From assembly GCA_004138175.2 (NCBI GenBank), contig RYFE02000016.1:1-64000 (forward strand): 64,000 nt of DNA, given 5' to 3'. This DNA comes from Chloroflexales bacterium ZM16-3 (GTDB lineage Bacteria; Chloroflexota; Chloroflexia; Chloroflexales; Chloroflexaceae). The notes beneath the pieces were generated by a model. The model saw nothing but the letters and a program-made list of their open reading frames with translations. It searched no databases and was not told the origin of the DNA. Made by a program: the position numbers and the translations under genes. Below, one piece after another: positions 10,232 to 55,264 of the stretch. Within the stretch, counting starts at the first letter, position 1. Every line of letters starts with the position of its first letter.

Positions 10232-11656
10232 ATGCGCCAGACCAAGATCGTCGCCACGCTGGGGCCGTCCACCAACACGCCGGAGCGGATTCTCGGCCTG
10301 ATCATGGCCGGGATGAACGTCACCCGCCTGAACTTCTCGCACGGGACGCACGCCGACCACGCCGCCCACATCGCGATGGTGCGCCGGGCGGCGGCCGAGA
10401 GCGGCAGACACGTTGCCATCCTCCAGGATCTCCAGGGGCCGAAGATTCGCACCGGCTCGCTGGAGGATGGGCGTCCGGTGGATCTGGTAGCCGGCGCACG
10501 CTTTGTGATCACGATCGAGCCGGTGATCGGCACAGGCGAGCGGGTCAGCACGACCTACCAGTCGCTCCCGCGCGACGTGCGCCCGCGCGACCGCATCCTG
10601 CTCTCGGACGGGCTGATTGAGCTGAATGTGATCAGCCACAGCGATACTGAGGTGCAGACAGAGGTGGTGCATGGCGGGCGGCTGAAGGAGCACCAGGGGA
10701 TCAACCTGCCCGGCGTGCGGGTGAGCGCGCCGGCTGCCACCGAGAAGGATTTTGTGGACCTGGCCTTCGGCCTGGAGCAGGACGTGGACTATGTGGCGCT
10801 GTCCTTCGTGCGCCAGGCCAGCGATATTGTGCAGGTCAAGGATATTATTCGGAAGGCCGGCAAGACCACGCCGGTAGTGGCGAAGATCGAGCGGCCCGAG
10901 GCGCTGGATGTGCTGCCAGAGATCCTGGCCGTCACCGACGTGATCATGGTGGCCCGCGGCGACCTGGGCGTGGAGATGCCACCCGAGCGGGTGCCGCTGG
11001 TGCAGAAACAGATCATCGACGCGGCGAACCGCGCGCTGATCCCGGTGATCACCGCCACGCAGATGCTGGAGTCGATGATCCAGAACCCCCGCCCCACCCG
11101 CGCCGAGGCCAGCGATGTGGCGAACGCGATTATCGACGGCACCGATGCGGTAATGCTCAGTGGCGAGACGGCCGCCGGCAGCTACCCGATCGAGGCGGTG
11201 CAGATGATGGCCCTGATCGCCGACGCGATCGAGGTGAGCGGGCGCTATGCGAACCATAACGCCGCGCCGCGCTGGGCGCTGCCCGAGGTGCAGAGCACCC
11301 CGCGCGCCATTGCCGCCGCCGCCTGTACCATCGCCCAGTCGCTGCCGGTGCGGGCGATCATCGTGCTCACCCAGAGCGGCTCCAGCGCCCGCCTCGTCTC
11401 GCACTACCGCCCGAATGTCCCGATCATCGCCTTCTGCCCCACCGCCGAGAGCTGTCTGCGCACCAGCCTCTACTGGGGGGTGACGCCGCTCTTAATCGAG
11501 ACCCACGACCGGCTTGATGAGATCGAGAAGCGCATCCAGCGCACGCTGCGCGAGCGTGGGTTTGTGCAGCGCGGCGATCTCGTGGTGCTGACCGGCGGCC
11601 ACCCGATCTATCGCTACGGGCCGACGAACTTCCTCAAGGTGATGCAGATCGAGTGA
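10232..11656 (+). CDS. pyk: Pyruvate kinase
   Basis: A 474-residue cytoplasmic enzyme converting phosphoenolpyruvate and ADP to pyruvate and ATP. Conserved blocks appear in order: RQTKIVATLGPSTNTPE, MNVTRLNFSHGTHADH, LQDLQGPKIRTG, the B-domain, DYVALSFVRQASDI, the active-site region VVAKIERPEALD with the catalytic Lys, MVARGDLGVEMPPE, ATQMLESMIQNPRPTRAE and LSGETAAGSYP. The C-terminal regulatory domain is complete and there is no extra PEP-utiliser domain. AGGAG lies 5 nt before the ATG. The gene stands alone, followed by a strong inverted repeat. The identification is secure. Confidence 0.96.
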   Translation: MRQTKIVATLGPSTNTPERILGLIMAGMNVTRLNFSHGTHADHAAHIAMVRRAAAESGRHVAILQDLQGPKIRTGSLEDGRPVDLVAGARFVITIEPVIGTGERVSTTYQSLPRDVRPRDRILLSDGLIELNVISHSDTEVQTEVVHGGRLKEHQGINLPGVRVSAPAATEKDFVDLAFGLEQDVDYVALSFVRQASDIVQVKDIIRKAGKTTPVVAKIERPEALDVLPEILAVTDVIMVARGDLGVEMPPERVPLVQKQIIDAANRALIPVITATQMLESMIQNPRPTRAEASDVANAIIDGTDAVMLSGETAAGSYPIEAVQMMALIADAIEVSGRYANHNAAPRWALPEVQSTPRAIAAAACTIAQSLPVRAIIVLTQSGSSARLVSHYRPNVPIIAFCPTAESCLRTSLYWGVTPLLIETHDRLDEIEKRIQRTLRERGFVQRGDLVVLTGGHPIYRYGPTNFLKVMQIE

Positions 11657-11695
11657 GGCGCGACTGCCTTACGGCACTACCGCAAAACTCGCCAT

Positions 11696-11768
11696 GTCAC
11701 GCTGAGTGCAGCGAAGCGTCCCGGCAGTCCATACCACGGCAGGGACGCTTCGCTGCGCTCAGCGTGAC
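11696..11768. terminator. Inverted repeat behind pyk
   Basis: Arms of 27 nt (GTCACGCTGAGTGCAGCGAA.. and its reverse complement with one difference) flank a 19-nt loop. The position fits a terminator for pyk; the sequence resembles a widespread intergenic repeat type. Confidence 0.65.
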
Positions 11769-11809
11769 AGGAGGCCGGAATACTTCAAAAGATCCGCCTC
11801 CCTGACAGT

Positions 11810-11850
11810 ATTGCACAACATGACTTATTGATATTGAACAGTTGATTGTG
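11810..11850 (+). repeat. 41-nt direct repeat, copy 1
   Basis: It aligns without gaps to 11916-11956, with 32 of 41 positions equal. Both copies begin ATTGCACAA, contain GACTTATT and AACAGTT, and end ATTGTG. The starts are 106 nt apart, about ten helical turns. Confidence 0.75.
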
Positions 11851-11915
11851 CTGAGACACTCTTGCTCTTACGCTGGTTTTGTACATCTTGTCCCGTGATG
11901 GGCGATAATGTCATC

Positions 11916-11956
11916 ATTGCACAAAGCGACTTATTCATGCCAAACAGTTAATTGTG
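11916..11956 (+). repeat. 41-nt direct repeat, copy 2
   Basis: Partner of 11810-11850. A third AACAGTT stands at 12021-12027, closer to the promoter, also followed by AAC. Candidate binding sites for a regulator of the downstream promoter. Confidence 0.75.
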
Positions 11957-12061
11957 AGAAATTTCTCGTACATCTGATAGAATTTCGCTTATATCTAAGC
12001 CTCTTTCTTACTGAAAACACAACAGTTAACAAAGCTTAACTTAGAAAACGTCAAAAAAATA

Positions 12062-12090
12062 TTGCTATATCACGTGTGTAATGCTATACT
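12062..12090 (+). promoter_or_regulatory. Probable nif promoter (sigma-70 type, extended -10)
   Basis: TTGCTA (12062-12067), a 17-nt spacer and TATACT (12085-12090) preceded by TG-C give a near-ideal vegetative promoter on the plus strand. Transcription from about 12097 would give nifH a leader of roughly 650 nt. No sigma-54 (-24/-12) promoter or NifA-type TGT-N10-ACA site was found. Confidence 0.6.
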
Positions 12091-12379
12091 CACGGCATAC
12101 CCAGTTAGGAACACACGAATACTAATACCGGCGTTGGTAGAGGAACACGGTGTCTCTATCATTGGTTGGTTCCCCTAGTCTACGTGGCTATCATAATAGG
12201 CGTATCCCCTCAGTGTTGTACCCCCTGCAGTGACGCAGCTGGCCCATCCGTCTGTGCATAGAACTATCATCATCTGAGCCCATGAAGGCGCATCTGTAGC
12301 ACTGGCACTGTTGCAGTTATGTACATCTTGGGAGCTGGCTACTGTGTAGCCCAGGATCGATGCACAGACACAAGAAGGT

Positions 12380-12549
12380 CCCTCGCCGCTGGCACCGGCG
12401 GGGGACCCAGGCAACGGCGGCGTGAGCGCCGATGCGGTGACATCATAACACAGTGTCCCCGCCCCGCTTCACGCCGCCCTCTACTCGAAACGCCCTCATC
12501 CGCTGGCACCGGAGTGGGCAGTTCGCAGCGGCGGCGTGAGCGTCGGTGC
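12380..12549 (+). ncRNA. Duplicated potential hairpin element in the nif leader
   Basis: Two 49-nt copies start at 12387 and 12501. In both, CGCTGGCACCGG is followed by 16 unlike bases and then CGGCGGCGTGAGCG. Each copy can fold into a hairpin with loop CTGGCAC; the stem pair next to it changes from GCCG/CGGC to TCCG/CGGA, keeping pairing. A second small hairpin has loop GCGTGAG, with one C-to-T change that preserves a G-U pair. Between the copies, TCACGCCGCC (12469-12478) is complementary to GGCGGCGTGA of either copy, so alternative pairing is possible. I do not recognise a known riboswitch class. It may be an RNA element or only a DNA repeat. Confidence 0.4.
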
Positions 12550-12627
12550 ATCCTGTTTCAGCGCGTCTGAGCGCGCATGCACCTGCTCTGCTGCCGCCTC
12601 CACCCTAAGGAGCGCGGCTATTTGTGA

Positions 12628-13566
<939 letters not shown>

Positions 13567-13583: not shown

Positions 13584-13641
13584 GTAAGGGGCACAGCAGC
13601 GCGACGCTGCTGCGCCCTTACAGGAACGGCGATGCCGTTCC
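13584..13641 (+). terminator. Two hairpins between nifH and nifB
   Basis: The first stem is at 13584-13621 (GTAAGGGGCACAGCAGC against GCTGCTGCGCCCTTAC, one bulge). The second is at 13623-13641, GGAACGGC and GCCGTTCC around a 3-nt loop. No T-run follows. They may be processing or partial termination signals that raise nifH over nifBDK. Confidence 0.5.
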
Positions 13642-13667
13642 CGCACCCTACCGAAAGAGGTGATTTC

Positions 13668-14582
13668 ATGGAAGCTCCAGCCCCCCAGGAATGTAAGGGC
13701 TCCTGCACGCCCAAGGTCGATGTCAGTACGCATCCGTGCTACAGCCCTGCTGCACACTTTCGCTATGGGCGCATCCACGTCCCGGTCGCGCCACGCTGTA
13801 ACATCCAGTGCAACTACTGCATTCGCAAGTTTGCCTGCCCCAACGAGAACCGGCCCGGGGTGACGATGCGAGTTGTCTCGCCTGATGAGGCGATGGGCAC
13901 GATCCGCCAGGCTGTTACCCGCGACCCGCGCCTGCGTGTGCTGGGTGTCGCCGGGCCAGGCGACGCGCTGGCCAATGATGCGACGCTGGCCACCTTTCAG
14001 CAGGCGAAGGATGAGTTCCCCCAGCTCACCCGCTGTATCTCGACCAACGGCCTGCTGCTGCCCGACCGCATCGACGAGATTGAGCGCGCCGGTATCACCA
14101 CCCTGACGATCACGATCAATGCGGTTGACCCGGCGATCGGCGAGCAGATCTACTCGCACGTGCGCTACCAGGGCAGGACGTACCGTGGGCGTGAGGCCGC
14201 CGAGCTGCTGCTGCGTAACCAGCTGGCTGGCCTGCGCGAGGCGGATCTGCGCGGCATGCTGGTGAAGGTGAACTCGGTGCTCATCCCCGGCGTGAATGAC
14301 CAGCACATGATCGATGTGGCCCGCGTGGTGCGGGATCACGGAGCCTACATTCAGAACATCATCCCCATGCTGCCGCTGGCCAAGTTCGCCCACCTGGAAG
14401 AGCCCTCAACCGAGATGGTCAACCAGGTGCGCAAAGAGTGCGGCGAGGTGATCAAGCAGTTCCTCAACTGCCAGCGCTGCCGCGCCGATGCGATTGGCGT
14501 GCCCGGTGAAGAGGGCTGCGGCACCCCGGCCACGCCCGAGAAGGTCTGCGTGCCGAAGTTCCTCGCTAAGGGTGTGCTGTAG
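13668..14582 (+). CDS. nifB: FeMo-cofactor biosynthesis protein NifB (short form)
   Basis: A 304-residue radical-SAM enzyme that builds the NifB-co precursor of the FeMo cofactor. The SAM cluster motif C-x3-C-x2-C is Cys44/48/51 in APRCNIQCNYCIRKFACP, preceded by the typical HPCYSPAAHFRYGRIHVP and followed by NENRPGV. Further NifB marks are VAGPGDALAN, CISTNGLLLPD, KVNSVLIPGVND and QRCRADAIGVPGEEGC. The NifX-like C-terminal domain of proteobacterial NifB is missing, as in archaeal and Roseiflexus-type proteins. AGAGGTGAT precedes the ATG at 13668. The gene lies between nifH and nifD, an order reported for Chloroflexales. Identification is secure. Confidence 0.95.
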   Translation: MEAPAPQECKGSCTPKVDVSTHPCYSPAAHFRYGRIHVPVAPRCNIQCNYCIRKFACPNENRPGVTMRVVSPDEAMGTIRQAVTRDPRLRVLGVAGPGDALANDATLATFQQAKDEFPQLTRCISTNGLLLPDRIDEIERAGITTLTITINAVDPAIGEQIYSHVRYQGRTYRGREAAELLLRNQLAGLREADLRGMLVKVNSVLIPGVNDQHMIDVARVVRDHGAYIQNIIPMLPLAKFAHLEEPSTEMVNQVRKECGEVIKQFLNCQRCRADAIGVPGEEGCGTPATPEKVCVPKFLAKGVL

Positions 14583-14618: not shown

Positions 14619-14661
14619 GGATACCACATTATAAGATCTACCTTCCACAGGAGATATGACG

Positions 14662-16101
14662 ATGGAACTAAAGAGTAGTACGACCATCCCCGAGCGCGCG
14701 CAGCATATCGCGCTGAAGGTTGAGGGTGGGAAGTGCCAGCGTGGCGATGGTGCCGGCTGCGCGATTGTCAGCAATTCGGCCACGACCCCCGGCGATATGA
14801 CGGAGCGCGGCTGTACCTACGCGGGCTGCCGCGGCGTGGTCGGCGGCCCGGTCAAGGACGTCATCCAGCTCACCCACGGCCCGATTGGCTGCGCCTTCTT
14901 CTCGTGGGGCTACCGGCCGCACCTCGCCGATAGCGACTTCCACATGAAGTACACCTTCGTGTCGGATATGAACGAGACCAACATCGTCTTCGGCGGCGAG
15001 AAGAAGCTGCTCCAGTCGATCATCGAGGCCAGCCGCGAGTTCCCCGAGGCGAAGGGTGTCTTCGTCTACAACACCTGCTCGACGGCCCTGATCGGCGACG
15101 ATGGCCGCGATGTGGCCAAGCAGGCCGAGGCGCTGATCGGCAAGCCGGTGGTCTTCTTCGAGTGCGAGGGCTTCAAGGGCGTCAGCCAGTCGGCCGGCCA
15201 CCACGTTGGCAACGAGACGATCTTCCGCCAGCTGGTCGGCTCGGTCGAGCCCGAGGGCGACTTCAGCCGCACGATCAACATCGTCGGCGACTACAACATC
15301 AAGAACGACATCCGCACCTTCGAGTATATGTTCGAGGCGATCGGCCTGCGGATCATCACCCGCTTCACCGGCAACGTCGGCGTGGACGACCTGAAGATCA
15401 TGCACAAGGCGTCGCTCAACGTCGTCCACTGCCAGCGCTCGGCCACCTACATCGCCGACATGATGGAAGAGAAGTACGGCACGCCCTACATCAACGTGAC
15501 CCTCTGGGGCATGAAGCATATGGCCCAGGCGCTGCGCGATACGGCTGCCTTCTTCGGCCTGGAGGCCGAGGCTGAGGCGGTGATCGAGCAGGAGCTGGCC
15601 AAGATCAAGCCCAAGATCGACTACTACCGCGAGCGCCTCCAGGGCAAGAAGGTCTTCATCTACCAGGGTGGGCCGCGGGTCTGGCACTGGATCGAGCTGC
15701 TGCGCGAGCTGGGCATGGAGACGCAGACCGCCGCCACCACCTTCGGGCACGAGGACGACTACGAGAAGATCTTCGAGCAGATCGAAGAGGGCGGGATGAT
15801 GATCGACAACCCGAACGTCCCTGAGATCGAGGAGATTCTCACGCGGCGTCGGCCCGACCTGTTCATCTCGGGTAACAAGGAGAAGTACCTGGCCTACAAG
15901 CTCGGCGTGCCCTTTGTGAACGGCCACACCTACGACACCGGCCCCTACGCTGGCTTCAGCGGCATGGTCAACTTCGCCCGCGATATCGACAAGGCCATCA
16001 ACGCCCCGATCTGGAAGACCCTGCACAAGAAGGCCCGGCCCGCCCCGGCGACCCACCACTCGTCACATGGTTTCGCGCACGGCTTTGAGGAGGGTGAATA
16101 A
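14662..16101 (+). CDS. nifD: Nitrogenase MoFe protein alpha chain
   Basis: A 479-residue subunit carrying the FeMo cofactor, where N2 is reduced. Expected ligands are visible: P-cluster cysteines Cys51 (TERGCTYAGC), Cys77 (GPIGCAFFSW) and Cys139 (YNTCSTALIG); cofactor ligands Cys257 (VVHCQRSATYI) and His422 (NGHTYDTGPYAGF); and the second-shell residues Gln176 and His180 (GVSQSAGHH) and Arg339 (YQGGPRV). Unusual features are Gly-Gly-Pro where most have Trp-Gly-Pro after GVV, and WGYRPH in the Arg96 loop. The ATG at 14662 has AGGAG 8 nt upstream, while the ATG two codons earlier (14656) is too close. It abuts nifK without a gap. It is divergent but complete in active-site residues. Confidence 0.94.
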   Translation: MELKSSTTIPERAQHIALKVEGGKCQRGDGAGCAIVSNSATTPGDMTERGCTYAGCRGVVGGPVKDVIQLTHGPIGCAFFSWGYRPHLADSDFHMKYTFVSDMNETNIVFGGEKKLLQSIIEASREFPEAKGVFVYNTCSTALIGDDGRDVAKQAEALIGKPVVFFECEGFKGVSQSAGHHVGNETIFRQLVGSVEPEGDFSRTINIVGDYNIKNDIRTFEYMFEAIGLRIITRFTGNVGVDDLKIMHKASLNVVHCQRSATYIADMMEEKYGTPYINVTLWGMKHMAQALRDTAAFFGLEAEAEAVIEQELAKIKPKIDYYRERLQGKKVFIYQGGPRVWHWIELLRELGMETQTAATTFGHEDDYEKIFEQIEEGGMMIDNPNVPEIEEILTRRRPDLFISGNKEKYLAYKLGVPFVNGHTYDTGPYAGFSGMVNFARDIDKAINAPIWKTLHKKARPAPATHHSSHGFAHGFEEGE

Positions 16102-17517
16102 ATGAGCTGCGTTACTACTCAAGACCGCGCGGTGTCGATCAACCCGACCCGCTCATGCGCGCCGATCGGGGCGATGCTCGCCAACTATGGCATCCATGGC
16201 GCGATCACGATCAACCACGGCTCGCAGGGCTGCGCCACCTACCCGCGCCACCAGATGGCCCGCCACTTCCGCGAGCCGGTTGAGGTCGCCACCACCTCGC
16301 TGACCGAGAAGACCACGGTCTACGGAGGCAAGGGCAACCTGCTAGAGGCGCTGAAGAATATCTGGGAGCGCTTTCACCCGACCATGATCATGGTCTGCTC
16401 GACCTGTCTCTCAGAGACGATCGGCGACGATATCCCCGGCACGATCGACGAGTTCACCGACAATCACCCCGAGATCACCATCCCGATCATCTCGGTGAAG
16501 ACGCCCTCCTACATCGGCAACCACACCACCGGCTTCGATAACTTCCTCAAGGAGATCGCCAGCAACCTGCCCGACAAGCGCAAGAAGAAGGGCGAGACCA
16601 ACGGCAAGATCAACATCATCCCCGGCTGGGTCAACCCTGGCGACATCCGCGAGCTGAAGCACATTGTGCGCGAGATGGGCCTGCACGGGCTGTGGCTGAC
16701 CGACTACTCCGAGACGCTGGACGGCGGCTACTACGAGCCGCGCCCGCACTTCGCCCGTGGCGGCACCACGATTGAGGATCTGCGCAGCTCATCCAAGTCG
16801 CTGGCGACGATCGCCATCCAGCGCTACATCGGCGGCGAGGCGGCCCATATCTACGAGCGGCGCTACAACGTCCCGGCCCATGTGCTGACCATGCCGATTG
16901 GTCTGGCCAACACCGACGCCTTCGTCGATACGCTCACCGAGATCACCGACCACCAGGTTCCCGAGGCGCTGAATGTCGAGCGCGCGCGCCTGCTCGACGC
17001 CATGGTGGACACGCATATGTTCACCAGCGGCCTGCGCGTGGCCCTCTTCGGCGACCCCGACCTGCTGGAGGGTCTGGTGGGCCTGGTGGCCGAGATGGGC
17101 ATGACCCCGGCCTATGTGCTCACCTCCTCCGAGTCGAAGCCCTGGGCCGAGCGTATGGTCGAGCTGACCGAGGAGCTGGGCGTCGAGAGCGAGATCATCA
17201 TCAAGGGCGACCTGCACGAGCTGCACAAGCGGATCAAGGCCAAGCCGGTCGATCTGCTGATCGGCCACTCGAAGGGCAAGTTCATCGCCGACGACGAGAA
17301 GATCCCGCTGCTGCGCATGGGCTTCCCGGTCGAGGATCGCTTTGGCTACCACCGCCGCTCGATCGTGGGCTACAACGGCGCGATCTCGCTGGTGGACGAG
17401 ATCACCAACCTCCTCTTCGAGCGCAAGGCATCCTTGGTGGTGAGCAACACCATCGTTGAGCTGGGGGTTGAGGGGCCGACCAGCGCCCCGATCACCTTTA
17501 TGAACGGGAAGCACTGA
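16102..17517 (+). CDS. nifK: Nitrogenase MoFe protein beta chain
   Basis: A 471-residue partner of NifD that shares the P-cluster. The three cysteines are Cys19 (TRSCAPIGAML), Cys44 (GSQGCATYPRH) and Cys102 (CSTCLSETIGDD); the Ser-bearing loop TPSYIGNHTTGFDN is also present. Compared with Azotobacter NifK the long N-terminal extension before the first Cys is missing, so only 18 residues precede it, as in the short forms of several thermophiles and archaea. The nifD stop (TAA) and this ATG are directly adjacent, so translation is coupled; GAGG lies inside the end of nifD. No nifE or nifN follows. NifK rather than NifN is favoured because all three P-cluster cysteines are kept. Confidence 0.94.
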   Translation: MSCVTTQDRAVSINPTRSCAPIGAMLANYGIHGAITINHGSQGCATYPRHQMARHFREPVEVATTSLTEKTTVYGGKGNLLEALKNIWERFHPTMIMVCSTCLSETIGDDIPGTIDEFTDNHPEITIPIISVKTPSYIGNHTTGFDNFLKEIASNLPDKRKKKGETNGKINIIPGWVNPGDIRELKHIVREMGLHGLWLTDYSETLDGGYYEPRPHFARGGTTIEDLRSSSKSLATIAIQRYIGGEAAHIYERRYNVPAHVLTMPIGLANTDAFVDTLTEITDHQVPEALNVERARLLDAMVDTHMFTSGLRVALFGDPDLLEGLVGLVAEMGMTPAYVLTSSESKPWAERMVELTEELGVESEIIIKGDLHELHKRIKAKPVDLLIGHSKGKFIADDEKIPLLRMGFPVEDRFGYHRRSIVGYNGAISLVDEITNLLFERKASLVVSNTIVELGVEGPTSAPITFMNGKH

Positions 17518-19082: not shown

Positions 19083-19610
19083 TTGATACAGCTCACAAAA
19101 AAGATCTGCCTGATCGGCGACTTTGCAGTGGGGAAGACAAGTCTGGTGCGCCGCTTCGTCGAGGGCCGCTTCAACGATAGCTACCTGAGCACACTTGGCG
19201 TGCGGGTGAGCCGTCGCGTGATAGAGATCGAGCGCGAATCACCGACACAGGTGACGCTAATGGTCTGGGATACCGCTGGTGGAGAGTCATTCGACAGCGT
19301 GACCAAGAGCTATTACCGAGGATCGGGTGGCGCGCTCCTTGTCTGCGACCTGACTCGGAGTGATACCCTAACCTCGTTGACGCGGTATGCCGAGGATTTT
19401 CGTGAGGTGAACCCCGGCGCGTCGCTTGTACTGATCGGCAATAAAGCCGATCTGGACGGTCAGCGCGTGATCTCCGACGAGCAGATCGCCGCCGCCGCCG
19501 ATGCCAATCAGGCAGCTTGGTTTGTGAGCAGCGCGAAGACTGGCGCACAGGTTGAGGATGCCTTTCTCTTTCTTGGTGCGGCTATTTGTAGTGTGAGGAG
19601 CAACCAGTGA
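19083..19610 (+). CDS. Rab/Ras-like small GTPase
   Basis: A 175-residue single-domain GTPase of the Ras superfamily. G1 is GDFAVGKTS (residues 12-20), a switch-I Thr is at 37 (YLSTLGV), G3 is WDTAGGES (62-69), G4 is NKAD (120-123) and G5 is SSAK (149-152). The Gln that Ras uses for hydrolysis (Q61) is Gly67 here, so turnover probably needs a partner. No lipid-anchor Cys ends the chain, although one Cys lies seven residues from the end. Translation starts at a TTG with AGGGG upstream; the KICLIGDFAVGKTSLVRRF start fits the family. The stop overlaps the next gene (GTGA). Similar GTPases occur in many bacteria next to LC7/OmpA-type proteins; a role in polarity or surface behaviour is inference. 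Confidence 0.88.
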   Translation: MIQLTKKICLIGDFAVGKTSLVRRFVEGRFNDSYLSTLGVRVSRRVIEIERESPTQVTLMVWDTAGGESFDSVTKSYYRGSGGALLVCDLTRSDTLTSLTRYAEDFREVNPGASLVLIGNKADLDGQRVISDEQIAAAADANQAAWFVSSAKTGAQVEDAFLFLGAAICSVRSNQ

Positions 19611-52597: not shown

Positions 52598-55264
52598 CTA
52601 CAGGCTGCGGCTCGCCACCACCTCGCCATCGACAATGTTTGTCTGGAGGGGCAGGGTGAAGCTGAAGGTGCTGCCCTGGTTCACCGAGCTCTCAAACCAG
52701 ATCTGGCCGCCGTGCAGCTCTACCAGGCGCCGGGTGATGCTGAGGCCGAGCCCGGTGCCGCCGACCTCATCGCGCAGGGGGTTGTCGGCGCGGTAGAACG
52801 GCGTGAAGATATGCTGCTTAGCCTCCTCGGCGATGCCCACGCCGGTGTCGCGCACGTCCACGCGAAGCGCGCCGCCGCCGTTGCGCAGGCCGATCCAGAC
52901 CGACCCGCCCTTCGGGGTGTACTTGCAGGCGTTGCCGATCAGGTTCACGGCGATCTGCTCGACCCGCTGGCGGTCGGCGCTCACCAGCGGCAGCTGATCC
53001 TGAAACTCCACATTCAGATTGATCTCGCGCTCGCGGAACTGGCTATTGAGCACCGCGATCACATCGTTCAGCACCTCGGGCAGATTCAGATCCTCGCGGC
53101 GCAGACGCACCTCGCCGGCCTCCACCCGCGAGATATCAAGCAACTCGTCGATCAGCTGCACCAGACGCACCACGTTATTCTTAATAACCCGCAGCGGCTC
53201 GCGCTGCGCCGGCGTCACATCGCCAAAGGTGCCGAGCATCAGCATGTCCACAAAGCCACGGATGCTCGTCATCGGCGTGCGCAGCTCGTGCGAGGCCGTC
53301 GCCACCAGCTCAGTCTTCAGGCGGTCGGCGATCTCCTCGCGGGTGATGTCGTGGTAGATCACCACGCCGCCGAGCGGCTCGCCCCGCGAGGAGACGACGG
53401 CGGCGTAGTGGGAGCGGACGGTGCGCTCGCCGATGCTGAACTTCTGTAGGCGGCTCTCGGCGTCGGCGGCGTTCAGGCGCTCGGGCACGCCGGGCAGCTC
53501 GGCGATCGAGCGGCCCACAAATGCCTCGTCGGTGATACCGAGGATGTCCTCGGCCGCTGTGTTGATAATCCGGATCAGGCCGAGCCGGTCGCTCACCACC
53601 ACGCCATCGCCGATGCTGCGCAGCATCGCCATGAGCTTGCTAGCCTCCTCCTCACGCTGCTGAGCCACCACGCCCAGGTGCTCGCTCTGTTCGCTCACGT
53701 AGCGGTAGAGCTGGGCCTTCGAGAGGGCGGCGGCGGCCTGACCGGCGGCGGCGGTGGCCAGCTGGGCGTGCTCGGGCGTGAAGTGGCCGACCGCGTCGTG
53801 GATGAGAATCAGGACGCCCAGCGCCTCGCTCTCCAGCAGGATGGGCACCGCCAACACTGATCGTGACTGCACATCGTAGCTGCTGCGCACCTGCCAGCGC
53901 GGGTCTTTGGTCGTGTCGGGGACGATCGCCGACTCGCGGTTGGCCAGCACCCAGCCAGCCAGGCCCTGCCCACGGTCGAGCCAGCCGACCTGAGTGGCCT
54001 TCTGACGCTCAAGGGTGGTGCGATACACCAGCCGCCCGCTGTTTGGCTCCACCAGCATGATCCCGCCGCGCTGGGCACCAATATGCTGGGCGATCAGGTT
54101 GAGGGTCTGCTCAAGCACCTGGCGCTCGTCCAGCGTCACGCTCAGGGCGCGGGCGATGTGATAGAGCACCTCGGCCCGGTCACGGGCCTTCCGCAGATCG
54201 GCGGCGCTGCTCTCCAGATCGGCGGTAGACTGCTGGACGCGCTGCTCCATGGTCGTGTAGAGATCCGCGTTGTCGATAGCGGCCGCCGCCTGGTTGGACA
54301 GCAGCTCCAGCAGCGGCAGAGCCTCATCGAGAACGGCGCGATGTGAGCGGGCCACCGAGACGCTGATCACCCCGCGCACCTCATCGAGCTGCGTGTGCAG
54401 CGGCAGCACCAGGTGCAGCTCGCCAGCCAGCGAGCGGAAGGGCAAGGTCTCAACCTCAACCGCATGGGAGCCAGCGGGACGCCCACGCTCCAGGCGGGCC
54501 TCCAGGTCGCTGTAGGCAAAGACCAAGCCCTCGACGGCGCTCAGGCGGCGTCCGCTCGCCCCAATCGCCACCGACACCTTCGCGTAGCCCTGGCTCCAGT
54601 CCACCAGGCTCAGCGTGACGCAGTCGAAGTCGCCAGAGTGCTGCACGGCCCCGGCCACATCCTCCATCGTCCGCTGGAGGCTGGTAGAGATACGCAGGCG
54701 GTTTGATGCCTGGAGGAAGCTGCGCAGCGCCTGCTCGCGGGCCAAGGCGCGGTCGCGCAGCTCGCGCTGGGCGCTAAGGGTGCGCTCGATGAGCAGGGCG
54801 ATCAGGCCAATCTCGGCCCCGTGGAGCAGCCAGTCTGCGGCCAGGTCGAGGCGTTGATCGGGCGGGCTGATCAGCACCAGGCCGCCATTGAGCAGCCAGA
54901 TCGCGGCGGCGACACCGGCCCCGGGCAGCCCCGGCATGGACAGGAGGGCGGCGCAGATAGGGATGAGCAGGGTGAGCCAGAGCGGCGAGGCGGCCCCTCC
55001 GCTCTGGATAATGGCGAGGAAGGCGAGCCCCACCGCGAGCACCAGCAGGGCCTGGGCGACCGTGCGCGTGCGCCCTTTGGCCGCAACGCCGACCATGCCA
55101 GCGGCCGAGCCGATCACCATGAGGGCAACCAGGGGGATGAGGACGGGCGGGCCAGCAGCCAGCCGAGAGCCGGCGTAGACAACCAGGGAGGCGGAGAGGA
55201 CGGTGAAACCGACCCCAACCCAACGTGGGTCGATCACCGCAGAAGACGGGGCACGCTGGCCCAT
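52598..55264 (-). CDS. Membrane histidine kinase, TM-GAF-GAF-PAS-HisKA-HATPase
   Basis: A protein of 888 residues. Up to five membrane helices (about residues 10-155: VGVGFTVLSASLVVYAGS, VLIPLVALMVIGSAAGMV, ALLVLAVGLAFLAIIQ) form an MASE-like sensor. After a coiled coil come a GAF domain (about 190-340), a second GAF (375-530), a PAS domain (545-655, GDGVVVSDRLGLIRIINTAA), the kinase His near 662 (TASHELRTPMTSIRGFVD) and ATPase boxes (IAVNLIGNACKYTPKGG, DTGVGIAEEAK, GTGLGLSITRRLVELHGG). No receiver is attached, so it signals to a separate regulator. The ATG at 55264 was chosen over an in-frame TTG. It lies upstream of the O-antigen ligase-like gene reading in the same direction. Confidence 0.88.
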   Translation of the reverse strand: MGQRAPSSAVIDPRWVGVGFTVLSASLVVYAGSRLAAGPPVLIPLVALMVIGSAAGMVGVAAKGRTRTVAQALLVLAVGLAFLAIIQSGGAASPLWLTLLIPICAALLSMPGLPGAGVAAAIWLLNGGLVLISPPDQRLDLAADWLLHGAEIGLIALLIERTLSAQRELRDRALAREQALRSFLQASNRLRISTSLQRTMEDVAGAVQHSGDFDCVTLSLVDWSQGYAKVSVAIGASGRRLSAVEGLVFAYSDLEARLERGRPAGSHAVEVETLPFRSLAGELHLVLPLHTQLDEVRGVISVSVARSHRAVLDEALPLLELLSNQAAAAIDNADLYTTMEQRVQQSTADLESSAADLRKARDRAEVLYHIARALSVTLDERQVLEQTLNLIAQHIGAQRGGIMLVEPNSGRLVYRTTLERQKATQVGWLDRGQGLAGWVLANRESAIVPDTTKDPRWQVRSSYDVQSRSVLAVPILLESEALGVLILIHDAVGHFTPEHAQLATAAAGQAAAALSKAQLYRYVSEQSEHLGVVAQQREEEASKLMAMLRSIGDGVVVSDRLGLIRIINTAAEDILGITDEAFVGRSIAELPGVPERLNAADAESRLQKFSIGERTVRSHYAAVVSSRGEPLGGVVIYHDITREEIADRLKTELVATASHELRTPMTSIRGFVDMLMLGTFGDVTPAQREPLRVIKNNVVRLVQLIDELLDISRVEAGEVRLRREDLNLPEVLNDVIAVLNSQFREREINLNVEFQDQLPLVSADRQRVEQIAVNLIGNACKYTPKGGSVWIGLRNGGGALRVDVRDTGVGIAEEAKQHIFTPFYRADNPLRDEVGGTGLGLSITRRLVELHGGQIWFESSVNQGSTFSFTLPLQTNIVDGEVVASRSL

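Follow-up and report, generated by a model that had tools for sequence, protein, structure and literature searches.

What controls nitrogenase in a Chloroflexales bacterium whose nifH upstream region displays neither the promoter nor the activator site of the classical nif systems? The question is raised by a stretch of 64,000 nucleotides (hereafter the window; contig RYFE02000016.1, positions 1 to 64,000) from the 6.27 Mb genome of Chloroflexales bacterium ZM16-3 (G000). Here nifH (12745–13566; PF00142, E 2e-119; ATG at 12745) is followed on the forward strand by a nifB-type radical SAM gene (13632–14582; PF04055), nifD (14656–16101; PF00148; 94 % identity in G001 and G003) and nifK (16102–17517; PF00148), the last three being named from gene order. 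This succession, in which the radical SAM gene follows nifH and precedes two Oxidored_nitro genes, is the nifHBDK order given for Viridilinea, Roseiflexus and Oscillochloris in the accessible excerpt of PMC6346205. An intergenic gap of 1,088 nt (11657–12744) separates nifH from its 5' neighbour, the pyruvate kinase gene pyk (10232–11656). On the other side, a Ras-family small GTPase gene (19083–19610) is found a short distance downstream of nifK and is followed by hybrid histidine kinases. The Chloroflexi form a deep phototrophic lineage whose nif genes are a reduced set, nifHBDK, and a literature search, at the level of search results, found no study of the control of their nitrogenase and no description of the Chloroflexales nif elements presented below. 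For comparison, the DNA upstream of nif was collected from all 29 genomes that gave a full-strength NifD match among 61 searched; L037, L044 and L057 extend only a short way upstream, while L035 (299 nt) was left out and replaced by L002 for G001.

Scanning both strands of 11657–12744 revealed no sigma-54 -24/-12 core (GG-N10-GC) and no NifA site (TGT-N10-ACA), which bears out the first-pass annotation on this point. The sigma-54 domain gene itself is missing from eight of 14 nif-bearing genomes (G001, G002, G003, G005, G006, G011, G012 and G024) and is present in the window genome. What the region does contain is a sigma-70-type promoter, composed of a -35 hexamer TTGCTA (12062–12067), a 17-nt spacer ending in TGC and TATACT at 12085–12090, the extended -10 being TGCTATACT (12082–12090, forward strand). 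Since three further sites score equally in a generic promoter scan, it is conservation alone that singles out this one. In an alignment of 17 promoters from two families (A7, i.e., 17 of the 18 loci that carry the operator described below, L045 being left out) TG-TATA-T is invariant and TTG nearly so, and the extended -10 is identical in seven Oscillochloris and Viridilinea promoters. The TTGCTA-N17-TATACT promoter recognized earlier is thus supported by its relatives. The start site predicted from this promoter, together with the nifH ATG at 12745, delimits a presumed nifH leader of about 650 nt (12097–12744, forward strand).

Upstream of the promoter lies a palindromic operator of the form GTT-N10-AAC, GTTAACAAAGCTTAAC (12025–12040, no strand assigned). 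The AACAGTT at 12021–12027, previously read as a third copy of the upstream repeats, is indeed at that position, and it forms the left edge of this palindrome; the idea of a third repeat copy was dropped in favour of the palindrome, which is conserved at nif promoters. A 16-bp dyad RTT-N10-AAC, situated 39–41 nt upstream of the extended -10, is found by pattern in 17 of the 29 nif loci and, with L045, in 18, ranging from Oscillochloris to Roseiflexus across two families. Its TT and AAC are invariant in the aligned promoters. It was not found in the other 11 loci, nine of which offer a useful search length (G002 among them) and two of which have short upstream sequence. Models that include window rows give the window its score by construction; the independent evidence consists of held-out matrices and new loci (G072, L045 and the Chloroflexus cta sites). 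With a matrix drawn from 13 loci of other genera, position 12023 comes first in the window (22.2 against 16.1 for the next site). When a profile of the whole promoter was run against 82 genomes of the order, 20 genomes matched at E 1.1e-5 or better, all of them at nif except G048, where the match sits on a contig end without nifH. The genes upstream of nif vary from locus to locus, which indicates that operator and promoter travel with nif as a module. Judged from these alignments, the element common to the genera is the palindrome, rather than the longer repeats farther upstream.

The next-best matches of the promoter profile cover the dyad part only, and they lead away from nitrogenase. Seven of eight genomes of the genus Chloroflexus (g9), which gave no full-strength NifD match where searched, have the dyad in front of a COX15-CtaA (and UbiA) gene, in most cases with ligA on its opposite side. 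The dyad is also found beside a COX2 gene in G071, a genome of the Roseiflexaceae side (f4). The strict cta-type promoter pattern is confined to Chloroflexus sites, in four of 82 genomes. In G003 (L233, 307–341) and G038 (L234, 1959–1992, reverse strand) the dyad further stands before genes whose small products are related and of unknown family; these genes are possible further members of the regulon. Several of the remaining profile matches looked like chance.

Farther upstream, a repeat search returned a single family with 48-nt copies at 11803–11850 (box 1, core ATTGCACAAnnnGACTTATTnnTATTnAAC) and 11909–11956 (box 2), both on the forward strand, 75 % identical overall and 106 nt or 10.1 helical turns apart. 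The two 41-nt direct repeats that the first-pass annotation had described at 11810 and 11916, matching at 32 of 41 positions with starts 106 nt apart, are thereby confirmed. When the 1088-nt intergenic region was dinucleotide-shuffled 100 times (maximum 26) and its 350-nt AT-rich part shuffled 300 times (maximum 27), a 41-mer self-match with 32 identities never arose. With a matrix from G001, G003 and G005 only, the window boxes rank first and second at 43.7 and 39.0 bits, the next site reaching 8.4, and the same matrix also recovers a copy in G004. Single-strand hairpins were ruled out as an account of the boxes by folding z values of -0.5 and +1.9. Between pyk and box 1 lies another kind of structure, a long hairpin (11695–11769) with 34-nt arms that are 91 % complementary and a half copy at 54609. 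Similar sequence near the nif box of G005 suggests that it is a dispersed palindromic repeat, and it possibly serves as the pyk terminator as well. Rfam sRNA and miRNA matches at 11687–11829 fall far below the gathering score, derive from this hairpin and were discarded.

The box core TTGYACAA...GAYTT stands upstream of nifH in the window, G001, G003 and G005, paired every time; these are four of the five members of the genus (most likely Oscillochloris) that carry nif. The repeats are therefore shared by three of the four other nif-bearing members of the genus, the close relatives in which their absence had been named as grounds for doubt. The remaining one, G002, has none upstream of nif, nor does any of the 24 nif loci from other genera, two of these having short upstream sequence. 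A sequence profile run over 41 genomes of the family gave nine strong matches, comprising the eight nif boxes and the copy in G004. The latter genome, which has no NifD match of comparable strength, carries its box upstream of genes for a BPD_transp_1 permease and an SBP_bac_11 protein, which we read from their domains as a probable molybdate-type (mod) transporter, and 93 nt ahead of a TATACT -10. No box accompanies the orthologues of this permease in five other genomes of the genus, nif-bearing ones included. In the same G004 cluster, L063 (7969–9279), beside the transporter genes, encodes a protein that joins a PadR-type DNA-binding domain to one of periplasmic-binding type, possibly a one-component sensor of metal oxyanions. 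In G001 and G005, each of the copies a and b is closer to its counterpart in the other genome than to its sister copy, which dates the duplication of the box as old.

The helical register of the boxes appears to be maintained. The two boxes lie 106 nt apart in the window and 74 nt apart in G001, G003 and G005, box 2 precedes the operator by 109, 88, 88 and 56 nt (n+0.33 to n+0.38 turns throughout), and it precedes the -10 by 169, 147, 146 and 116 nt, or 93 nt at the G004 mod genes. Between species, these spacings change by 21 or 32 nt, which equal whole turns of 10.5 bp to within 0.5 bp; three such whole-turn indels have a chance probability of 0.003. Separate circular tests of phasing gave P values of 0.016 for three arrangements, 0.05 for four and 0.14 for two, and the phasing evidence as a whole stems from three or four independent arrangements, hence few independent events. 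Placement of the repeats on the same DNA face, as first proposed, finds support in this register, kept in the relatives through whole-turn indels.

Is there a candidate for the protein that might read these sites? All five genus members with nif encode a CRP/FNR protein (L269, 1477–2181; L268, L270, L267 and L266) that the one without nif lacks, and in G000 and G001 its gene lies beside a gene that we take to be Hcp-like from an N-terminal motif of its product; the CRP/FNR family is here called HcpR-like. The distribution of this family fits the six genomes of the genus and not other genera: it is missing from four of five g5 genomes and gives no more than a distant match in Roseiflexus. The operator was not found near the HcpR-like genes or the mod loci. 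As the co-occurrence with nif holds in the genus and fails across the order, the protein was set aside and is not named as the regulator.

The nifH leader harbours a third layer of conserved elements. An RNA element of three hairpins occupies 12372–12486 and is followed by a second copy at 12486–12609, both on the forward strand. The covariance model R2 scores them at 104 bits (E 6e-25 per genome) and 44.6 bits (E 1.1e-8), scores that arise by construction since the models R1, R2 and R3 include window rows, copy 1 being among the 15 rows of R2. The layout comprises H1, whose loop is CUGGCAC in most cases, the core GCARCGGCGGCGURAGCGCCGAUGC, which forms H2, and then H3. In an alignment of 30 rows from 23 sources (A6, E at most 1e-6), itself fitted to the model structure, 95.5 % of cells pair and 15 of 22 pairs have changed on both sides, a level that was matched by none of 500 shuffles and by no slide. 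A pattern derived from the leader matches 10 of 41 family genomes, on nif contigs only, with zero control matches. Among the 82 genomes of the order the covariance model finds 23 at E 0.01, 20 of them below 1e-16, and in 19 of these 20 the best match is in the nif leader, upstream of nifH, that of G040 lying on a contig end. Extending the search to 400 genomes of the phylum gave strong matches in 13 Chloroflexales genomes and weak ones to R2 (E 1e-5 to 7e-4) in five genomes from other Chloroflexota families. With covariation-supported structure and a consistent position in nif leaders, the element has two of the attributes by which cis-regulatory RNAs are recognized.

Further details of the leader are reminiscent of a switch. 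The H2 loop of copy 1, GCGTGAG at 12420–12426, can form seven of seven pairs, one of them G-U, with TTCACGC at 12468–12474, a candidate pseudoknot on the forward strand. The best complement of the H2 loop GCGURAG lies 47–54 nt downstream for the 5' copy in 19 of 19 leaders and for the second (3') copy in only one of 13; copy 2 of the window has no conserved pseudoknot. Since the partner was chosen as the best complement, the evidence lies in its constant position and in compensatory changes (GUGUGAG/CUCACAC in L052, GCGUAAG/CUUACGC in Viridilinea and one site in L042), not in pairing alone. Most leaders carry a second, divergent copy in tandem, and the last copy's 3' arm has a possible alternative partner: in the window and in Viridilinea a segment farther downstream that contains GGAG, in L052 the putative ribosome-binding site. 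In the window, the possible alternative hairpin GCCGCCTCC...GGAGCGCGGC (12593–12618, forward strand) overlaps the 3' arm of copy 2; in Viridilinea a U-rich tail follows. The element was not found at useful score in the leaders of the other nif-bearing Oscillochloris genomes (G001, G002, G003 and G005) and is weak or absent in those of G015 and G038. At L036 (G002, Ca. Oscillochloris fontis), the TGCTATACT promoter is kept while boxes, dyad and leader element are all missing. Related three-hairpin elements also occur away from nifH in G012 and G040 (L188, 343–457; L189, 288–399; L190, 2951–3065; L191, 2727–2840); they have a GCUAUUGUAGCAU-type hairpin in common and represent a sister RNA or a repeat family. 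Such relatives of the scaffold away from nif count against a nif-only role of the leader element.

Several other explanations deserve to be weighed against a layered control region. The first, which is that of the original proposal, would have one nif-specific regulator, bound to two (or three) repeats, as the main switch of the promoter. The boxes are indeed phased and old, and four of the five genus members with nif have them at these genes. Their role as the main control is not supported: being absent from G002 and from every nif locus examined in another genus, the boxes cannot be a general Chloroflexales nif switch, whereas many of those genera retain the palindrome and the promoter, and the third AACAGTT belongs to the palindrome. 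We thus regard a single regulator of this kind as unlikely, and the boxes, by their distribution, are a local, genus-level add-on to nif control. It is more improbable still that they are what is left of a small mobile or repetitive element inserted at nif and, in G004, at mod. The isolated G004 copy, shared by no mod orthologue in the genus, and the palindromic repeat adjoining at 11695–11769 would fit such an origin, but the 41 family genomes contain no further copies, inverted ends are lacking, spacing changes in phase and the G004 copy, too, stands 93 nt ahead of a TATACT -10.

Two further rivals concern the operator and the leader. The likeness of the nif and cta/cox dyads may be coincidental, two different regulators recognizing similar palindromes. 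The cta matches are orthologous sites of one genus and thus nearly one observation, with E-values from 9e-5 to 0.3. However, the match extends into the site centre and the 3' flank, and it recurs both in nearly all Chloroflexus genomes and at the COX2 gene of another family, so that coincidence seems doubtful without being far-fetched. As for the leader, the element could be a stable 5' structure of the mRNA, serving stability or processing and not switching. This is a distinct possibility, if a minority one, given the strong GC-rich hairpins, the folding z of -3.0 for the whole leader and the nif leaders that do without the element. Conservation of loops and core in sequence, the tandem copies, a candidate pseudoknot confined to the 5' copy and a 3' arm able to pair elsewhere speak against it.

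The anatomy and conservation of promoter, dyad, boxes and leader elements being established at the level of sequence, the reading that we prefer, and consider probable, is that of a composite, layered nif control region independent of sigma-54 and made up of these four components. We infer that proteins bind at the boxes or the dyad. A dimeric regulator would occupy the dyad at about -64, a class I activator position, and might report the oxygen or redox state of the cell, a role proposed because the same dyad precedes haem-A and cytochrome oxidase genes in relatives without nif. In part of the genus only, a second DNA-binding protein would bind both boxes on one face of the DNA and influence the promoter from this upstream position. 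Once transcription has begun, the leader RNA may add a second control step, attenuation or translation, via alternative pairing of its 3' arm. The fullest version of this scheme, in which a tandem pseudoknotted leader RNA reads a cellular signal and switches nif after initiation, atop a sigma-70 promoter with an operator linked to oxygen respiration, is put forward tentatively, as quite conceivable and somewhat short of an even chance. The region in any case supplies exact testable sites in its structured leader, its two phased boxes and an operator shared with oxidase-related genes. Should the leader prove to be a switch, nitrogenase would be under RNA control of a kind not encountered in the literature search, at the level of search results.

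How does this arrangement compare with known systems? In proteobacteria, nifH is controlled by NifA and sigma-54 through a -24/-12 element and the upstream site TGT-N10-ACA. Control of nifH is common to both systems, whereas the window has neither element and many nif-bearing relatives do without a sigma-54 domain gene. CRP/FNR class I sites have the consensus TGTGA-N6-TCACA or TTGAT-N4-ATCAA. The operator resembles them as a 16-bp dyad lying about 60–65 bp upstream of the expected start, class I dyads being placed at about -61 to -65, but its half-site in the window (GTTAACAAAGCTTAAC) is GTTAA, not TGTGA or TTGAT. Control of the GlnR type in Paenibacillus (PMC6191146) is NifA-free, as here, while operator sequence and the long structured leader set the window apart. 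With riboswitches and tandem riboswitches (reviewed in PMC9481103) the leader shares covarying structure, tandem copies, a candidate pseudoknot and an alternative partner for a 3' arm. It differs from known riboswitches and leader RNAs in matching no Rfam family; in Rfam 15, no family scored above gathering for the window leader or for the leaders of five relatives. Among known architectures, the nearest is the cyanobacterial nif promoter with extended -10 under CnfR control, which, in the sections available of PMC8510180, is likewise of sigma-70 type, independent of sigma-54 and NifA, and preceded by several conserved upstream elements. Those elements lie 300–600 bp upstream and the promoters have no -35 (PMC8510180), whereas the boxes of the window lie about 170–290 nt upstream and are joined by a proximal dyad and a -35.
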